Assembly: GCA_016213775.1 (NCBI GenBank)
Contig: JACQZR010000004.1
Coordinates: forward strand, 1-64,000
Source: Acidobacteriota bacterium
Lineage (GTDB): Bacteria; Acidobacteriota; Terriglobia; Bryobacterales; Bryobacteraceae
DNA: 64,000 nucleotides
Direction: 5' to 3'
Below the pieces are notes generated by a model. The model was not told where the DNA came from, searched no databases, and saw only the letters and a list, made by a program, of their open reading frames with translations. Position numbers and translations under genes: made by a program. This document shows, piece by piece, positions 6,016 through 10,833 of the stretch (within the stretch, counting starts at the first letter, position 1; every line of letters begins with the position of its first letter).

Positions 6016-6052
6016 CTTCGAAGCGCCTGTCTACCTTCGAAGCGCCTGTCTA
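6016..6052. repeat. Tandem direct repeat, two copies of 18 bases
   Basis: CTTCGAAGCGCCTGTCTA occurs at 6016-6033 and again at 6035-6052, separated by one base. It lies just outside the left copy of the 6.06-7.17 kb duplication. Just upstream (5985-5990) a TTGACA hexamer sits in an AT-rich island with the near-palindrome ACATAATATATGT. No clear -10 box follows at 16-18 bases, so I do not call a promoter. Confidence 0.8.
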
Positions 6053-6176
6053 GAGGAGCTGCTGCAAGCGGGCGAATGCTAATCTTGAATGAACGGCCAG
6101 GAGATCGTCTGTCAAAGGCGGACTGACCGGAGGCGCGCGCAGCGCTTGGAGACCGATCGAGAAAGGAAGCCACGGC

Positions 6177-6458
6177 GTGACGCCAGAGGAACGGTTCGAA
6201 CATATTGAAGCGATTCTGGCCAGGATCGCCACACGGCAGGAAACAGAAGCCGAACACATCGCTATGCTTTTGGAGGACTCCAAGACGCGCAACGCCGACA
6301 TCGAGGGCCTCATAGAATCAAGCCGCCTACTGAATGAACAGGTGCGACTTGGCAAGGCGGAACGCGACCAGGACGCGGAGAACATACGCCGCCTCGCCAA
6401 CATCGCCCAGGCGCACGAACACCGTCTTGACGACCTCGAAGGCGACAAGTCCCAGTAA
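6177..6458 (+). CDS. Small coiled-coil protein, copy 1
   Basis: A 93-residue, highly charged, helix-forming protein starting at a GTG at 6177, with GAAAGGAAG upstream. It begins TPEERFEHIEAILARI and contains continuous heptad-like patterns such as IEGLIESSRLLNEQ and RRLANIAQAHEHRLDDLE; no membrane segment or signal peptide is present. The last 62 residues are nearly identical to the gene at 6795-7055. Such proteins usually oligomerise. Function unknown. Confidence 0.7.
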   Translation: MTPEERFEHIEAILARIATRQETEAEHIAMLLEDSKTRNADIEGLIESSRLLNEQVRLGKAERDQDAENIRRLANIAQAHEHRLDDLEGDKSQ

Positions 6459-6794
6459 CCAAGCCTGCGGCGACCGGCAGCGAATCGCTCGGGTTCGCAC
6501 CGCGCAAAAGGACGGCGACACAATGGCCTTCGACAGTCAGACGGCTTCTCACCCGCGGCAAGTGGATCGACTTCCTCAGCGACCGCGAAGGCAACGACAA
6601 TACTTGGTGCGCCAGCGGAGCTGCTGCAAGCGGGCGAATGCTAATCTTGAATGAAGAGGTATGAAGAAACGCAAACAGCGCCAGGAGATCGTCTGTCAAT
6701 GGCGGACTGACCGGAGGCGTGCGCAACGCTTGGAGACCATGCGCAACAGAGCAAGCGCCGCCTCCGCCCGTTGGTCGAGAAAGGAAGCCACGTC

Positions 6795-7055
6795 ATGACG
6801 CCGGAGGAACGGTTCGAACGCATCGAGCGTAACCTCGCATTGCAAGGTGAACACCTTGCCATGCTGCTTGAGAACGCCAAGACTCACGCCTCCGATATCG
6901 AGGGCCTCATCGAATCCAGCCGCCTTCTGAATGAACAGATGCGACTTGGAAAGGCGGAACGCGACCAGGACGCGGAGAACATTCGCCGCCTCGCTAACAT
7001 CGCCCAGGCGCACGAACACCGTCTTGACGACCTCGAAGGCGACAAATCCCAGTAA
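6795..7055 (+). CDS. Small coiled-coil protein, copy 2
   Basis: An 86-residue paralogue of the 6177-6458 product. The ATG at 6795 aligns with the GTG of copy 1 and has the same upstream GAAAGGAAG. Differences are concentrated in the first 35 residues (copy 2 is shorter there, ERIERNLALQGEHLAML); the following 52 residues differ by only one substitution (V to M in LLNEQ[V/M]RLGK). The preserved reading frame in both copies suggests that both are translated or that the duplication is recent. Confidence 0.7.
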   Translation: MTPEERFERIERNLALQGEHLAMLLENAKTHASDIEGLIESSRLLNEQMRLGKAERDQDAENIRRLANIAQAHEHRLDDLEGDKSQ

Positions 7056-7232
7056 CCAAGCCTGCGGCGACCGGCCAGCGAATCGCGAGGCCGTGAGCGT
7101 CGGGTTCGCACCGCGCAAAAGGACGGCGACATAATGGCCTTCGACTGTCAGACGGCTTCTCACCCGACGGGAGGAATGATTGGTGCGCCGGGCGCAAGCA
7201 GGTCACTCGCGATAACCGCCGGATAGGCAGTA

Positions 7233-7282
7233 TGACACTTTCAGAGTTATTTGGCATAGGGTCATCAACTTTATTTGGCATA
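7233..7282 (+). repeat. Left transposon end with two 12-bp transposase-type sites
   Basis: Starts TGACACTTTCAGAG. It holds TTATTTGGCATA at 7247-7258 and again at 7271-7282 (24-base period). Both are inverted copies of the TATGCCAAATAA boxes at the right end. Repeated end boxes in the same orientation are typical of Mu/Tn7/Tn552-like elements, whose transposase binds several sites per end. The inner box lies 10 bases before the transposase ATG (7293), so binding there could also repress transcription. Confidence 0.85.
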
Positions 7283-7292
7283 CTGGCCCGGT

Positions 7293-7754
7293 ATGAACGA
7301 ACTGGCCGGACTCCCCGAAGAGGCGCGCAGGCTGGCCATGGAGCGCTTCCCTGCTGATTCAGGTGGCCAAGGCCCGCCAGGTGCGAGTTGACGGCATTCA
7401 CTTCCAGAATCTCCGCTACATCTCGACAACGCTTGCCGCTCACATCGGCGAGACCGTAACCTTGCGAATCGATCCAAGAGACATGGCTGAGGTGCGCGTC
7501 TTCCACAAAGACAAGTTTCTGTGCCGCGCCGTCTGTGCTGAACTCGGCGGACAGACCGTGCCGCTCCGCGAAATCATCCGCGCCAGGAATCATCGGCGGC
7601 GGGAACTTCGCGGCGTTCTTCGAGACCGCCAAGCCGCCGTGAACACGTTGATCGACCTGAAGCGTGGAGACGCAGAGTATGCTCCACCCTCAACCCCACC
7701 GACGAACCAAGAAAACGGGCAGCATCTGCCCTCAAGCGCTACCGAAACGAGTAA
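7293..7754 (+). pseudogene. TniA/Mu-type transposase relic with internal deletion
   Basis: An ATG at 7293 opens MNELAGLPEEARRLAMERF, a typical start of this transposase family. At about 7345-7350 this frame runs straight into sequence whose next frame reads LLIQVAKARQVRVDGIHFQN and continues as the C-terminal Mu-type beta-barrel (GETVTLRIDPRDMAEVRVF). Several hundred codons, including the whole DDE catalytic core, are therefore missing. The natural end of the protein, LKRYRNE and TAA at 7752-7754, is in a third frame relative to the barrel, which implies a further indel around 7665-7700. The gene is dead. Confidence 0.8.
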
Positions 7755-8664
7755 GCATCACAAGCCGACGGTTGTCGAAACGCTCGAACACCGCCGCTTC
7801 ACTGAGTTCTGCGACGCCTGCCGCCGCTACCGGTACATCGGCCTCTGTTATGGGCCACCGGGAGTCGGCAAGACTCTCTCGGCCCGAACCTACAGCCGTT
7901 GGGATAAAGTCAAGCAATCGGATCGCTGGCACGCAGGCCCGACGGAAACCCCTCTCCTCGATACGGTCTTCGACACGCCTGATGTCGTCAATGCGCTAGG
8001 TGGCATCGCCTCTGGTGTCCGATTTGCGCGCGACACATTGAAGGATTCGGCCAGACGTCCGCTGCGTCGGGAACAGGAACAACTGCTGGAATCGATCCGC
8101 CGCCGGGACGAAGAGCATCGCACCGAGCTTCACACGAAGCATGACTGGTTGAGCGAGCCGTTTCCAGAGCTCCAGCCGACATACGGTGAGATGGCCAGAG
8201 AGTATGGCATGAAGGACGCACGGATCGCCGATCCTACGACGCTCATTTTGATCGATGAAGCTGACCGCCTACGAATGGCCAGCCTTGAGCAGGTGCGAGC
8301 CATCTTCGATGCCAGTGAGGTTGGCATTGTGCTGATCGGCATGCCCGGCCTCGAAAAGCGCCTGGCGCGGTACGCGCAGTTCTACTCCCGAATCGGGTTC
8401 GTTCCCGAGTTTCGCCCGTTGGGAACGACAGAGATCCGTCGGTTGTTGACTCAACGATGGACACCGGCTGGAGTGAATCTACCCGACCAGCCGTGGGCCG
8501 AAGAAGCCATCGCTGCCATCATCCGCATCACGAGCGGAAATTTCCGTCTGTTGAATCGACTCCTAACCCAGATGGAGAGAATCCTCGAAATCAATTCGCT
8601 GCGAGAAGTTACCAAGGAGGCAGTGGACGCCGCGCGGGAGAGCCTTGTAATCGGGCAATCCTAA
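7363..8664 (+). CDS. TniB/TnsC-like AAA ATPase fused in frame to the transposase C-terminal barrel
   Basis: The open frame (433 residues from a GTG) has two parts. Residues 9-90 are the transposase C-terminal barrel. From about residue 129 it is an AAA ATPase with Walker A GPPGVGKT (164-171), Walker B LILIDEA (294-300), a sensor-1-like GIVLIGMPG (321-329) and a C-terminal helical lid. TniB/TnsC proteins load the transposase on target DNA and give target choice or immunity. No ATG, GTG or TTG exists in this frame between 7651 and the Walker A motif. The natural start was probably at 7747-7749, now ACG (see findings), so expression today needs the fused frame or a non-standard start. Confidence 0.8.
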   Translation: MAKARQVRVDGIHFQNLRYISTTLAAHIGETVTLRIDPRDMAEVRVFHKDKFLCRAVCAELGGQTVPLREIIRARNHRRRELRGVLRDRQAAVNTLIDLKRGDAEYAPPSTPPTNQENGQHLPSSATETSKHHKPTVVETLEHRRFTEFCDACRRYRYIGLCYGPPGVGKTLSARTYSRWDKVKQSDRWHAGPTETPLLDTVFDTPDVVNALGGIASGVRFARDTLKDSARRPLRREQEQLLESIRRRDEEHRTELHTKHDWLSEPFPELQPTYGEMAREYGMKDARIADPTTLILIDEADRLRMASLEQVRAIFDASEVGIVLIGMPGLEKRLARYAQFYSRIGFVPEFRPLGTTEIRRLLTQRWTPAGVNLPDQPWAEEAIAAIIRITSGNFRLLNRLLTQMERILEINSLREVTKEAVDAARESLVIGQS

Positions 8665-8698
8665 CGGTCGATCTATGTGTGCGGTATTCTGCAACGAG

Positions 8699-9163
8699 CT
8701 ATTTGCTCAAAGATTGCCGCGTATACTGAACGGCCGCGAAGCCGCCCTCCAGCAAGGCTCGGGCCACTCGATTCAGATTCGATCGCCGGTGAGCAAAAAA
8801 CGTTGTGTACTCATCGTGGTCGGCATAGATCAAAAACGAATGCGGTTCTGGGATGAACACAAAATCCAGCCAATCACTGAGAGCAGCCTGTAAAAGCGCC
8901 TCGGCCTCGCTTCGACTCGTAGCGATCAGAGTACAGTGTCGCCGGTCGCTCGATATTGAGTAGCGCCTGAGGCACTTTGTCAAGTTCACCGGTTCGAAGA
9001 CCTCCTTGTCTATAAAAAAGCTACCCCCATCGACCCGGCCCGCGGAAACGATGATTCCAACGAAGCTCTCCAGTGCCTTGAGCGGAGTCTCAAAGGTCTG
9101 TTGAAAGGGCGGTGGGGTGCGGCGTAGGGGCTTGAGGTTCAACGGATTCTCGGAGCAGAGCAA
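8699..9163 (-). CDS. Transposon passenger ORF, unknown function
   Basis: A 154-residue frame on the strand opposite the transposition genes, opening with TTG at 9163 after a GAGG at suitable spacing; the frame has no ATG. The protein looks globular with alternating strands and helices (FVGIIVSAGRVDGGSFFID, HCTLIATSRSEAEALLQAAL, LDFVFIPEPHSFLIYADHDE) and no signal peptide or membrane segment. I do not recognise it. It lies between the ATPase and the resolvase, where the Tn552 group carries tniQ or cargo; it does not resemble TniQ. It could be an immunity or regulatory protein for the element, or simple cargo. Confidence 0.55.
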   Translation of the reverse strand: MLCSENPLNLKPLRRTPPPFQQTFETPLKALESFVGIIVSAGRVDGGSFFIDKEVFEPVNLTKCLRRYSISSDRRHCTLIATSRSEAEALLQAALSDWLDFVFIPEPHSFLIYADHDEYTTFFAHRRSNLNRVARALLEGGFAAVQYTRQSLSK

Positions 9164-9242
9164 CTCACATTCCTCACTATGAATGTTAGCTCACCAACTG
9201 GTTCGAAACGCGAAGTGGTGGAACTCGATCTTGTCTAGGAGG

Positions 9243-9352
9243 ATTGCACAAACAAACGTTTCTGCAACATTCCGCCAGAACCCCGTTTCTGTGGATATCC
9301 GCATTGCACAAAGGTATTGCGTAATATAAACTAATGGCAATAGATTATTGCA
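9243..9352. promoter_or_regulatory. Possible resolvase recombination (res) site
   Basis: The 110 bases before the resolvase ATG hold several repeats: ATTGCACAAA at 9243-9252 and 9303-9312, CGTTTCTG at 9257-9264 and 9284-9291, and an inverted TATTGC (9315-9320)/GCAATA (9337-9342). Clusters of partly inverted subsites directly before the gene are typical of res sites for Tn3/Tn552-type resolvases, which also repress their own transcription there. Subsite boundaries cannot be fixed by eye. Confidence 0.45.
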
Positions 9353-9909
9353 ATGGTAATCGGCTACGCCCGCGTCTCAACTAATGATCAGGAGACCGCC
9401 ACGCAAGTGACGGCTTTGAAGGCGGCTGGGTGTGAGCGGATCTATCGTGAGAAGGCTTCTGGTGGAAGATGGGACAGACCCGAACTGCACAGGCTGCTCG
9501 ACCAACTGCGCAAGGGCGATGTGCTTGTCGTCTGGAAGCTCGACCGGCTATCCCGTTCTCTTCGCGCCTCGGGGAGTCATCGGCGGGATTCCGCAGCTTG
9601 ACGGAAGCGATCGACACCACAACTCCGGCAGGACGGATGATGATGCAGATGGTCGGAGCGTTTGCGGAATTCGAGCGGGCCATGCTGCGGGAGCGAACCA
9701 AAGCCGGATTGGACGCTGCCAGGGAGGAAGGCCGGATCGGAGGCCGGCGCCCGAAGCTCACGGAACAGCAGCAATCGGAGATCCGGAAGATGGTTACCAG
9801 GGGCGACAAGAGCGCCGCCGATGCAGCTCGGCTGTTCAAAGTCCATCCGGCAACTGTTTCGAGGCTACTCGCCCGGACCAGTGTCAAGAAGAGCCGCTAT
9901 GCCAAATAA
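9353..9909 (+). pseudogene. Serine resolvase (TniR-like), frameshifted
   Basis: The first frame from 9353 reads MVIGYARVSTNDQETATQ with the catalytic serine (RVS) and continues to LDRLSRSL at about 9560. The protein then continues in another frame as RLGESSAGFRSLTEAIDTTT, through the E-helix and FAEFERAMLRERT, to a helix-turn-helix (AARLFKVHPATVSRLLAR). Compared with intact resolvases about eight residues plus a partial codon are missing at the break, so a deletion of about 25 bases is likely. The stop codon lies inside the right transposon end. The gene is probably inactive. Confidence 0.85.
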
Positions 9910-9946
9910 TGTTGACGATCTATGCCAAATAATTCTGAAAGTGACA
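9898..9946 (-). repeat. Right transposon end with two 12-bp sites
   Basis: TATGCCAAATAA occurs at 9898-9909 and 9921-9932 (23-base period), followed by TCTGAAAGTGACA ending at 9946. This is the inverted counterpart of 7233-7282, with the same box order and spacing and roughly 85% match by eye. The last codons and stop of the resolvase relic are inside the outermost internal box. Confidence 0.85.
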
Positions 9947-10089: not shown

Positions 10090-10833
10090 ATGTTAGTGAG
10101 ATTCATCGCTCTCCTGGGAGCCGTCGGCACGGCGCAATCCCCGCCGGAGTTTGAGGTCGCCTCCGTACGCCTCAACACCGCCAACGACCGTATCGTGACG
10201 ATCAACGTCGGGCCTGGCGGACGTTTTGCCGCCCGCGGCTATACCCCCGGCCTGCTTATCCAGCGCGCCTACGGCGTCATGGGTTGGAACATATCCGGCG
10301 GACCATCCTGGGTCTTCAACGACCGTTACGATGTCAACGCCACGGCGGCCGTTTCCGGTAACCTCACGGAGACGCAGTTGCGCCCCATGCTGCGTAAGCT
10401 GCTATCGGATCGCTTCGGGCTGGTCACGCACGAAGGTTCCAAGGAGGTGCCGGGCTACGCCCTTGTGATTGCCCGCAAGGGTCTCAGTAGCGAAGTGCAA
10501 CAAGCCCAGGCCAGCGGTATCGACCCTGACGCCTCATTCCGATTCACCCGCGCCAGCCTCACGGCCGAAGCCGTGTCAATGCCCGACTTCGCCCGCTACA
10601 CCGCCGGCAAGGTTGGCCAGGTTGCGGTGGATGCAACCGGGCTCAAAGGACTCTACAAATTCAAAGCAGCCTGGAAACTCGGCGATGCGACGCCCGGCGT
10701 CGACGCCAAGGACGAGTTCCGCGCTGTGGTCTTCGACGCCATCGAAACCCAACTCGGGTTGAGGTTCGCTCCTCGCCGGATTACGATTCGGACCATCGTC
10801 ATTGACAGAGTCCACCGCCCATCGGAAAACTAG
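10090..10833 (+). CDS. TIGR03435 family secreted protein
   Basis: A 247-residue protein. Residues 1-15 form a short signal peptide ending at AQS. The first mature residues, PPEFEVASVRLN, are the hallmark opening of the TIGR03435 family, a large paralogous family of soil acidobacteria. Also typical are the GPGGRFAARGYT segment, LIQRAYGV, a tryptophan-rich GGPSW, and LRPMLRKLLSDRFGL. The function of the family is unknown. No convincing SD is seen before the ATG. It is convergent with the PEP-CTERM gene, and their stop codons interlock in a shared CTAG at 10830-10833. Confidence 0.9.
   Translation: MLVRFIALLGAVGTAQSPPEFEVASVRLNTANDRIVTINVGPGGRFAARGYTPGLLIQRAYGVMGWNISGGPSWVFNDRYDVNATAAVSGNLTETQLRPMLRKLLSDRFGLVTHEGSKEVPGYALVIARKGLSSEVQQAQASGIDPDASFRFTRASLTAEAVSMPDFARYTAGKVGQVAVDATGLKGLYKFKAAWKLGDATPGVDAKDEFRAVVFDAIETQLGLRFAPRRITIRTIVIDRVHRPSEN

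Follow-up and report, generated by a model that had tools for sequence, protein, structure and literature searches.

The present analysis concerns positions 7233–9946 of a 64,000-nucleotide stretch (the window) that begins contig JACQZR010000004.1 of a soil bacterium of the Acidobacteriota. This segment is bounded by inverted ends and carries relics of a transposase gene (tniA), a tniB-type ATPase gene and a serine resolvase gene, together with an open reading frame (ORF) that may be cargo (Table 1). Very probably it is a non-autonomous Tn552-group transposon that was inactivated recently; the clade to which it belongs is acidobacterial and has an intact member at a locus designated L066. The first-pass annotation had described a decayed element with paired 12-bp sites at both ends; the observation is real, and its coordinates and its description of the ends are exact.

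Features of the element and of its immediate ends

Table 1. Features of the element, in window coordinates (aa, amino acids)
Feature	Position	Strand	Description
Left end	7233..7282	+	Terminal TGACACTTTCAGA and boxes 7247-7258 and 7271-7282 (both minus strand); layout recurs in relatives
tniA 5′ remnant, first codons	7293..7350	+	Ends at out-of-frame deletion junction 7350/7351; comparison with L066
tniA 3′ remnant	7351..7700	+	Mu-transposase C-terminal domain (Pfam PF09299) and tail; alignment
433-aa open frame, tniA tail fused to tniB	7363..8664	+	Joined by 1-bp deletion near 7696
tniB-type AAA ATPase relic	7687..8664	+	85% identity to L066 TniB over 326 aa
Cargo candidate, 154-aa ORF	8699..9163	-	No recognised family; codon-position GC 0.56/0.44/0.65
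Putative res (cointegrate resolution) region	9244..9352	+	Upstream of resolvase gene; alignment of 13 elements, subsites inferred
Serine resolvase relic	9353..9909	+	Two frames, Pfam PF00239; 22-bp out-of-frame deletion near 9565
Right end	9898..9946	-	Terminal TGTCACTTTCAGA and boxes 9898-9909 and 9921-9932 (both plus strand); layout recurs in relatives

The outer inverted arms (7233–7259 and 9920–9946) are 27 nt long and 93% identical, and the inner arms (7262–7287 and 9893–9918) are 26 nt long and 85% identical. Each end has two exact copies of a box, TATGCCAAATAA, in one orientation within the end, with a spacing of 24 bp at the left and 23 bp at the right; these boxes are putative transposase-binding sites. 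In the organism's own assembly (10,956,185 bases) there were four exact copies, every one at these ends, and five further places with one mismatch. The boxes are thus not spread over the genome as ordinary regulatory sites, which the first-pass annotation had named as a refuting outcome. With the reversed box pattern as a control there were 10 places with no more than one mismatch; the near-matches are therefore what chance would give, and the exact copies alone stand out. Similarly, 5 of 100 shuffles of the window reached four matches at up to two mismatches (mean 1.28), and it is therefore the exactness and placement of the boxes, rather than their number, that exceed chance. A 26-base end model scored 37–49 on its own 22 seed ends, high by construction because the seeds include the window left end and the sequence of the right end; in shuffled sequence (496,657 bases, both strands) it scored no higher than 11.1. 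The end pattern, at up to three mismatches, occurs once per strand in the organism's own genome and in 30 of 237 genomes of the family, its own included. There was no Rfam match at gathering scores between 6500 and 10500.

A candidate res region precedes the resolvase start: in an alignment of 13 elements, the window copy among them, this stretch is conserved, with one row (L177) divergent in the first part. The final codons of the resolvase relic, TAT GCC AAA TAA (Tyr-Ala-Lys-stop), coincide with the inner right-end box at 9898–9909, and this overlap is nearly identical in L066. An ORF as long as the cargo candidate arose in 19 of 1000 simulated sequences.

Comparison with an intact relative and timing of decay

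Searching genome contigs with the ATPase returned 21 loci, the best match (87%) being L010, on contig JAFDVZ010000018.1 of the Acidobacteria metagenome-assembled genome SZAS TMP-7; L066, which has the same genes, was taken to be the same stretch. A complete element lies at L066 4860–9227 in the order left end, tniA, tniB, cargo, res, resolvase gene and right end. Its products are a TniA of 494 aa, a TniB of 334 aa, a resolvase of 192 aa and, on the opposite strand, an alpha/beta-hydrolase-like cargo protein of 307 aa. The TniA has helix-turn-helix (HTH), rve and Mu-transpos_C domains and shares its DDE residues with Tn552. The ends match those of the window and are flanked by a 6-bp target duplication, CCTGGC; the frames on either side look like two halves of one putative protein-kinase-like gene. 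Searching with the TniB-like protein, as the first-pass annotation had suggested, does lead to an intact relative.

Alignment with L066 located three gene lesions in the window copy, in keeping with the original description of a decayed element of TniA/TniB type. In tniA, 1,004 bp are gone out of frame (L066 4978–5981, approximately residues 26–360), and the remnant lacks the whole DDE core and nearly all of the HTH; in the L066 protein the HTH match spans residues 23–75 and the DDE motifs lie between 167 and 281. A single base is lost between the tniA tail and tniB, joining the frames into one 433-aa ORF, and the connection between the frame of the L066 tniB start region and the window tniB relic is broken. 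In the resolvase gene 22 bp are gone that are present alike in L066, L069 and L153.

The ratios of nonsynonymous to synonymous substitution (dN/dS) against L066 were 0.061 for the TniA tail, 0.061 for TniB and 0.014 and 0.043 for the two resolvase parts, rough values given that dS was at least 1.3 except in the TniA tail and that synonymous sites are near saturation in parts. Changes private to the window copy were 29 synonymous and 5 nonsynonymous in 134 codons of TniB, and 11 synonymous and 2 nonsynonymous in 175 codons of the resolvase. Because surviving codons changed mostly at synonymous positions, the decay appears recent; most of the divergence of the window copy probably preceded the breaks, judging by counts from few sequences.

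An alternative explanation could be that the fused TniA-tail/TniB frame has been kept as a functional protein, for example in target immunity or in inhibition of intruding relatives. The frame is open over all 433 aa and the window lineage changed mostly synonymously in the part of TniB tested, but a synonymous excess would follow equally from selection before a recent break, the frameshifted resolvase shows the same pattern, and parts of tniB are deleted in some relatives too; we regard this explanation as very improbable. It is very improbable that the small lesions are errors of sequencing or assembly in an element intact except for its large deletion. A single-base lesion next to a short run of C, and an assembly in 314 contigs, would allow for such errors, but deletions of 1,004 bp in tniA and 22 bp in the resolvase gene are improbable as errors. 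Moreover, stop-free stretches of at least 150 aa cover 94% of the window, which gives no clear sign of widespread frame errors, although in GC-rich DNA the test is a weak one.

The state of the copy is consistent with the non-autonomy proposed for it at first: disruptions affect all three of tniA, tniB and the resolvase gene, and searches of the organism's own assembly with the ATPase and with the intact TniA, in which every first-look candidate was scored, returned the window remnants only, with no intact tniA or tniB of this clade elsewhere. Among 399 genomes of the class, with three candidates scored per genome, at least 10, the organism's own remnant among them, matched TniA at E 1e-60 or better.

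Family placement, related ends and mobility

In a common alignment the L066 TniA was 43% identical to p480 of Tn552 and 25% to one Tn5053-type TniA, and in tblastn it matched p480 at 42% over 98% of its length and the Tn5053-type protein at 27% over 81%. The L066 TniB was 38% identical to the ATPase of a Tn552 copy from an S. aureus plasmid record. A transposase tree of 20 sequences left 10 of its 17 inner branches open and had a very long Tn5053-type branch, so identities alone were used; among solved structures the best sequence matches were TnsB proteins, which served as a plausibility check only. This S. aureus Tn552 copy has ends starting TGTCACTTTGC with termini TGTCACTTT, a 7-bp target duplication, ACAATTA (6 bp is given for Tn552 in the available portion of PMC3276174), and, as read by eye, two related words, ATATATGAGAA and ATAAATGAGAA, 23 bp apart in its end. 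Tn552 of Staphylococcus, with its p480, p271, bin resolvase and bla cargo, thus resembles the present clade in transposase family, AAA ATPase, serine resolvase, terminal TGTCACTTT, paired direct boxes and target duplication. It differs in its resistance cargo, in boxes of another sequence and in gene order. The features of the group found here are a p480-type DDE transposase with a Mu C-terminal domain (a relic in the window, intact in L066), a p271-type AAA ATPase, a serine resolvase with a res region, and inverted ends with two direct boxes. Placement in the Tn552 group, not with Tn5053, is firm because of the transposase, the terminal TGTCACTTT, the paired boxes and the 6–8-bp duplications of relatives, and the element at 7233–9946 adds a new member, a decayed one, to that group.

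Gene order gives no such agreement. The first-pass annotation had held that it follows Tn552, but the S. aureus Tn552 copy reads cargo-resolvase-p480-p271 and L066 reads tniA-tniB-cargo-resolvase, and a third arrangement, resolvase-tniA-tniB-resolvase, is annotated in an M. avium relative (L079) in which there were no convincing ends; the order therefore varies among such elements and is not treated here as a defining feature of the group. The same annotation had named the element Tn552/Tn5053-like, and only the first half of that name stands. Elements of the Tn5053/Tn402 family have a resolvase gene downstream of tniB in the case of Tn5053, and tniQ as a third tni gene. Like the present elements they are of TniA/TniB type and have TGTCATTTTCAGA near tniA: in a tniA-mer element of an E. 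coli plasmid TGTCATTTTCAGA, which we take to be the terminus, lies approximately 230 bp before tniA, and two matches at up to three mismatches are at chance level there. Membership in this family is nonetheless highly improbable, since the transposase is distant from the Tn5053 type, the duplications in relatives are 6–8 bp, and in L066 there was no tniQ, the hydrolase ORF of the cargo standing alone between tniB and the resolvase gene.

Related end pairs were defined as facing ends scoring at least 23 and at most 12 kb apart, with identical copies counted once and Tn552 kept apart. There were 20 distinct pairs besides the window in the loci examined, and the earlier expectation that relatives would share these end sequences is borne out by L066 and the others. 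An exact duplication of 6–8 bp flanked 9 of the 20 (L014, L019, L027, L066, L092, L161, L162, L171 and L187, of which L171 and L187 represent one site) and was absent in 11. Full-length tniA was absent in eight pairs, five of which have duplications: six (L160, L161, L164, L171, L179 and L187) had no tniA or tniB match, and in two (L027 and L162) the genes were truncated. Three pairs counted as bearing tniA (L011, L012 and L020) have it frameshifted or with a stop. That the boxes are ordinary regulatory sites inverted by coincidence has a negligible probability, since the one-mismatch near-matches elsewhere are at chance level, the exact boxes are confined to the ends, and related elements have matching ends, nearly half of them with duplications.

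The course expected for an intact member is that TniA would bind both boxes of each end, pair the ends and, helped by TniB, join them to the target, producing a 6–8-bp duplication; if transposition is replicative, the serine resolvase would afterwards act at res to resolve the cointegrate. The window copy keeps the presumed cis-acting parts, both ends and res, and the cargo ORF, and would be mobile only with proteins supplied in trans by a relative. According to the available portion of a survey of Tn7-like elements (PMC8649781), a resolvase acting in trans can provide the resolution.

Several points weigh against reading 7233–9946 as a transposon of this kind. The window element has no target duplication, its flanks sharing no common word of 6 or more within 40 bp, and a search of the 237 family genomes with the two flanks joined (two first-look candidates scored per genome) gave no junction-spanning match of the kind expected from an empty site. 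The 154-aa ORF has no Pfam or NCBIfam family and no homologue strong enough to name its product. It is possible that an intact copy lies in a gap of the assembly, whose completeness is 98.5%, and no transposition was seen in this sequence-based analysis. With regard to the duplication, its absence in 11 of 20 related pairs makes absence in the window element, a single inactive copy, uninformative. The missing duplication reported at first is thus confirmed but need not mean an old insertion, one of the two explanations then offered; the low nonsynonymous change also suggests recent decay.

There were also observations on neighbouring and related sequences. Directly left of the element are two near-duplicate stretches (6052–6555 and 6614–7166, 77%) with small ORFs of 93 and 94 aa, the second with a DUF16 match below cut-off, and to its right, at 10090–10833, is a gene of the TIGR03435/DUF3738 family. 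A genome of the same genus has two contig ends (L068:4027-6925 and L069:8304-10023) that seem to be the two parts of a single element, which would have a tniA-tniB deletion of its own and whose ADOP-type cargo is apparently divided over the two contigs; by eye, its flanks share a possible 5-bp duplication, GAATG. Two contigs of a viral collection (L151 and L152) have the same single degenerate end.

Reduced relatives and their cargo

A res profile was built from 12 of the 13 aligned elements and run on 15 elements and 18 shuffled controls; none of the controls reached E 10. There were res-like stretches in five of seven searched pairs without full tniA (L179, L164, L187, L171 and L160; E 5e-15 to 2.5e-8), and no resolvase gene was found in these five. 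The other two, L027 and L162, had no match to the profile, with res either lost or never detectable. An eighth such pair, L161, kept both resolvase and res and was itself in the profile, so that res is kept in six of the eight. A two-gene Nitrospira element without a resolvase match (L014) had a res-like stretch at E 2e-7, and nothing below E 1 was found in L017, L018, L019 and L020, the last two of which have a more distant resolvase. Some relatives are thus shrunk to little beyond ends, resolution site and cargo genes. As a working model, ends, res and cargo tend to persist while tniA, tniB and the resolvase gene are lost, and the window copy, in which all three genes are broken but both ends and res remain whole, agrees with an early position on such a path; the order of stages is drawn from separate elements, not from one lineage.

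Comparable reduction has been described elsewhere. The Tn3-family IS101 and TIME244, the latter with a putative site, are non-autonomous elements that keep res, according to the available portion of PMC13367494. The TIMEs, Tn3-family miniatures, are likewise non-autonomous and some have a res site, but as described in the parts available of PMC13367494 and PMC4133298 they are Tn3-derived, typically 50–500 bp long, and often mobilise genes between two copies, whereas here the cargo sits within single elements. A Tn552 deletion variant in the available portion of PMC3276174 is closer, a Tn552-type element with its transposase genes gone and its cargo retained; the window copy differs in also having a broken resolvase gene and in having part of tniA and most of tniB left. 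The survey of Tn7-like elements names Tn552 among elements with subterminal arrays of transposase sites and lists four acidobacterial hosts for Tn7-like elements, and the present clade is not described in the available portion (PMC8649781). No publication on this acidobacterial clade was found among the titles and abstract openings examined.

Six relatives (L171, L187, L160, L180, L220 and L181) are non-autonomous cargo shells that share subterminal stretches of approximately 231 bp on the left and 120 bp on the right; the left end of L181 is degenerate. The left stretch matches the res profile in five of the six, and the cores between are without mutual similarity (best blastn E 0.4). At least 17 of the 237 family genomes match the 231-bp stretch at E 0.001 or better, many over the end alone. 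Inverted CTCTACACTRCGC copies (up to three mismatches, by eye) stand at both inner borders in five of the six shells, and at the right border only in L181. Two shells, L171:8125-9417 and L187:4516-7926, occupy one insertion site, flanked by an identical 6-bp duplication, in two genomes; their matches over flank and subterminal stretches are 94.6% and 89.4% identical and their cores (942 and approximately 3,060 bp) wholly different. The left stretches of these two are 92% identical, other copies matching over the whole length reach at most 86%, and a partial copy (L224) likewise reaches 92%, across 121 bp. For the right stretch the identity is the same, 90%, with L187, L160 and L170. The difference in cores at one site, a lead from outside the window, could stem from an exchange through general recombination within the shared stretches; two separate insertions at one preferred site could explain it as well.

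After the shells were seen a motif, CTCTACACTRYGC, was chosen, and similar sequences (at least 11 of 13 positions) lie within 120 bp after tniB in five of 15 elements (L066, L092, L020, L025 and L030), against an expectation of 0.04; in the region preceding res, only one of 12 (L012) had it standing out. It is possibly a cargo promoter or a border of the cargo slot. It was rejected as a part of the window element, where the best match after tniB was 8 of 13 positions. We put forward, as a doubtful but conceivable extension, a fuller path of which the window element would be a snapshot: Tn552-type transposons of Acidobacteriota would first lose tniA and tniB, and afterwards the resolvase gene, while retaining their ends, res and a fixed-border slot for cargo. 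The cargo in that slot would later be swapped in place, a cassette-like exchange without an integrase.

The cargo itself is varied. That of L092:3405-6526, L025:3299-6217 and L023:4827-6920 includes ADOP permeases (TIGR03434), with an acidobacterial PadR (TIGR03433) also in L092; both families have many copies in acidobacterial genomes. The cargo of L020:7024-7883 resembles a TacA-type antitoxin and GNAT acetyltransferase pair. The 154-aa ORF of the window had, beyond its own genome, weak matches in four of 237 genomes (best E 0.003) and no match in plasmids; its AlphaFold model, made with no alignment, had a mean pLDDT of 42 and was set aside.

The element at 7233–9946 and its relatives document a Tn552-type clade, carried by uncultured soil bacteria, whose cargo is not made up of resistance genes and in which a recently broken copy can be set alongside relatives at several stages of reduction. 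That some relatives keep res in the absence of a transposase hints at possible selection for resolution in trans, an idea that has been raised for the Tn3-derived TIMEs.

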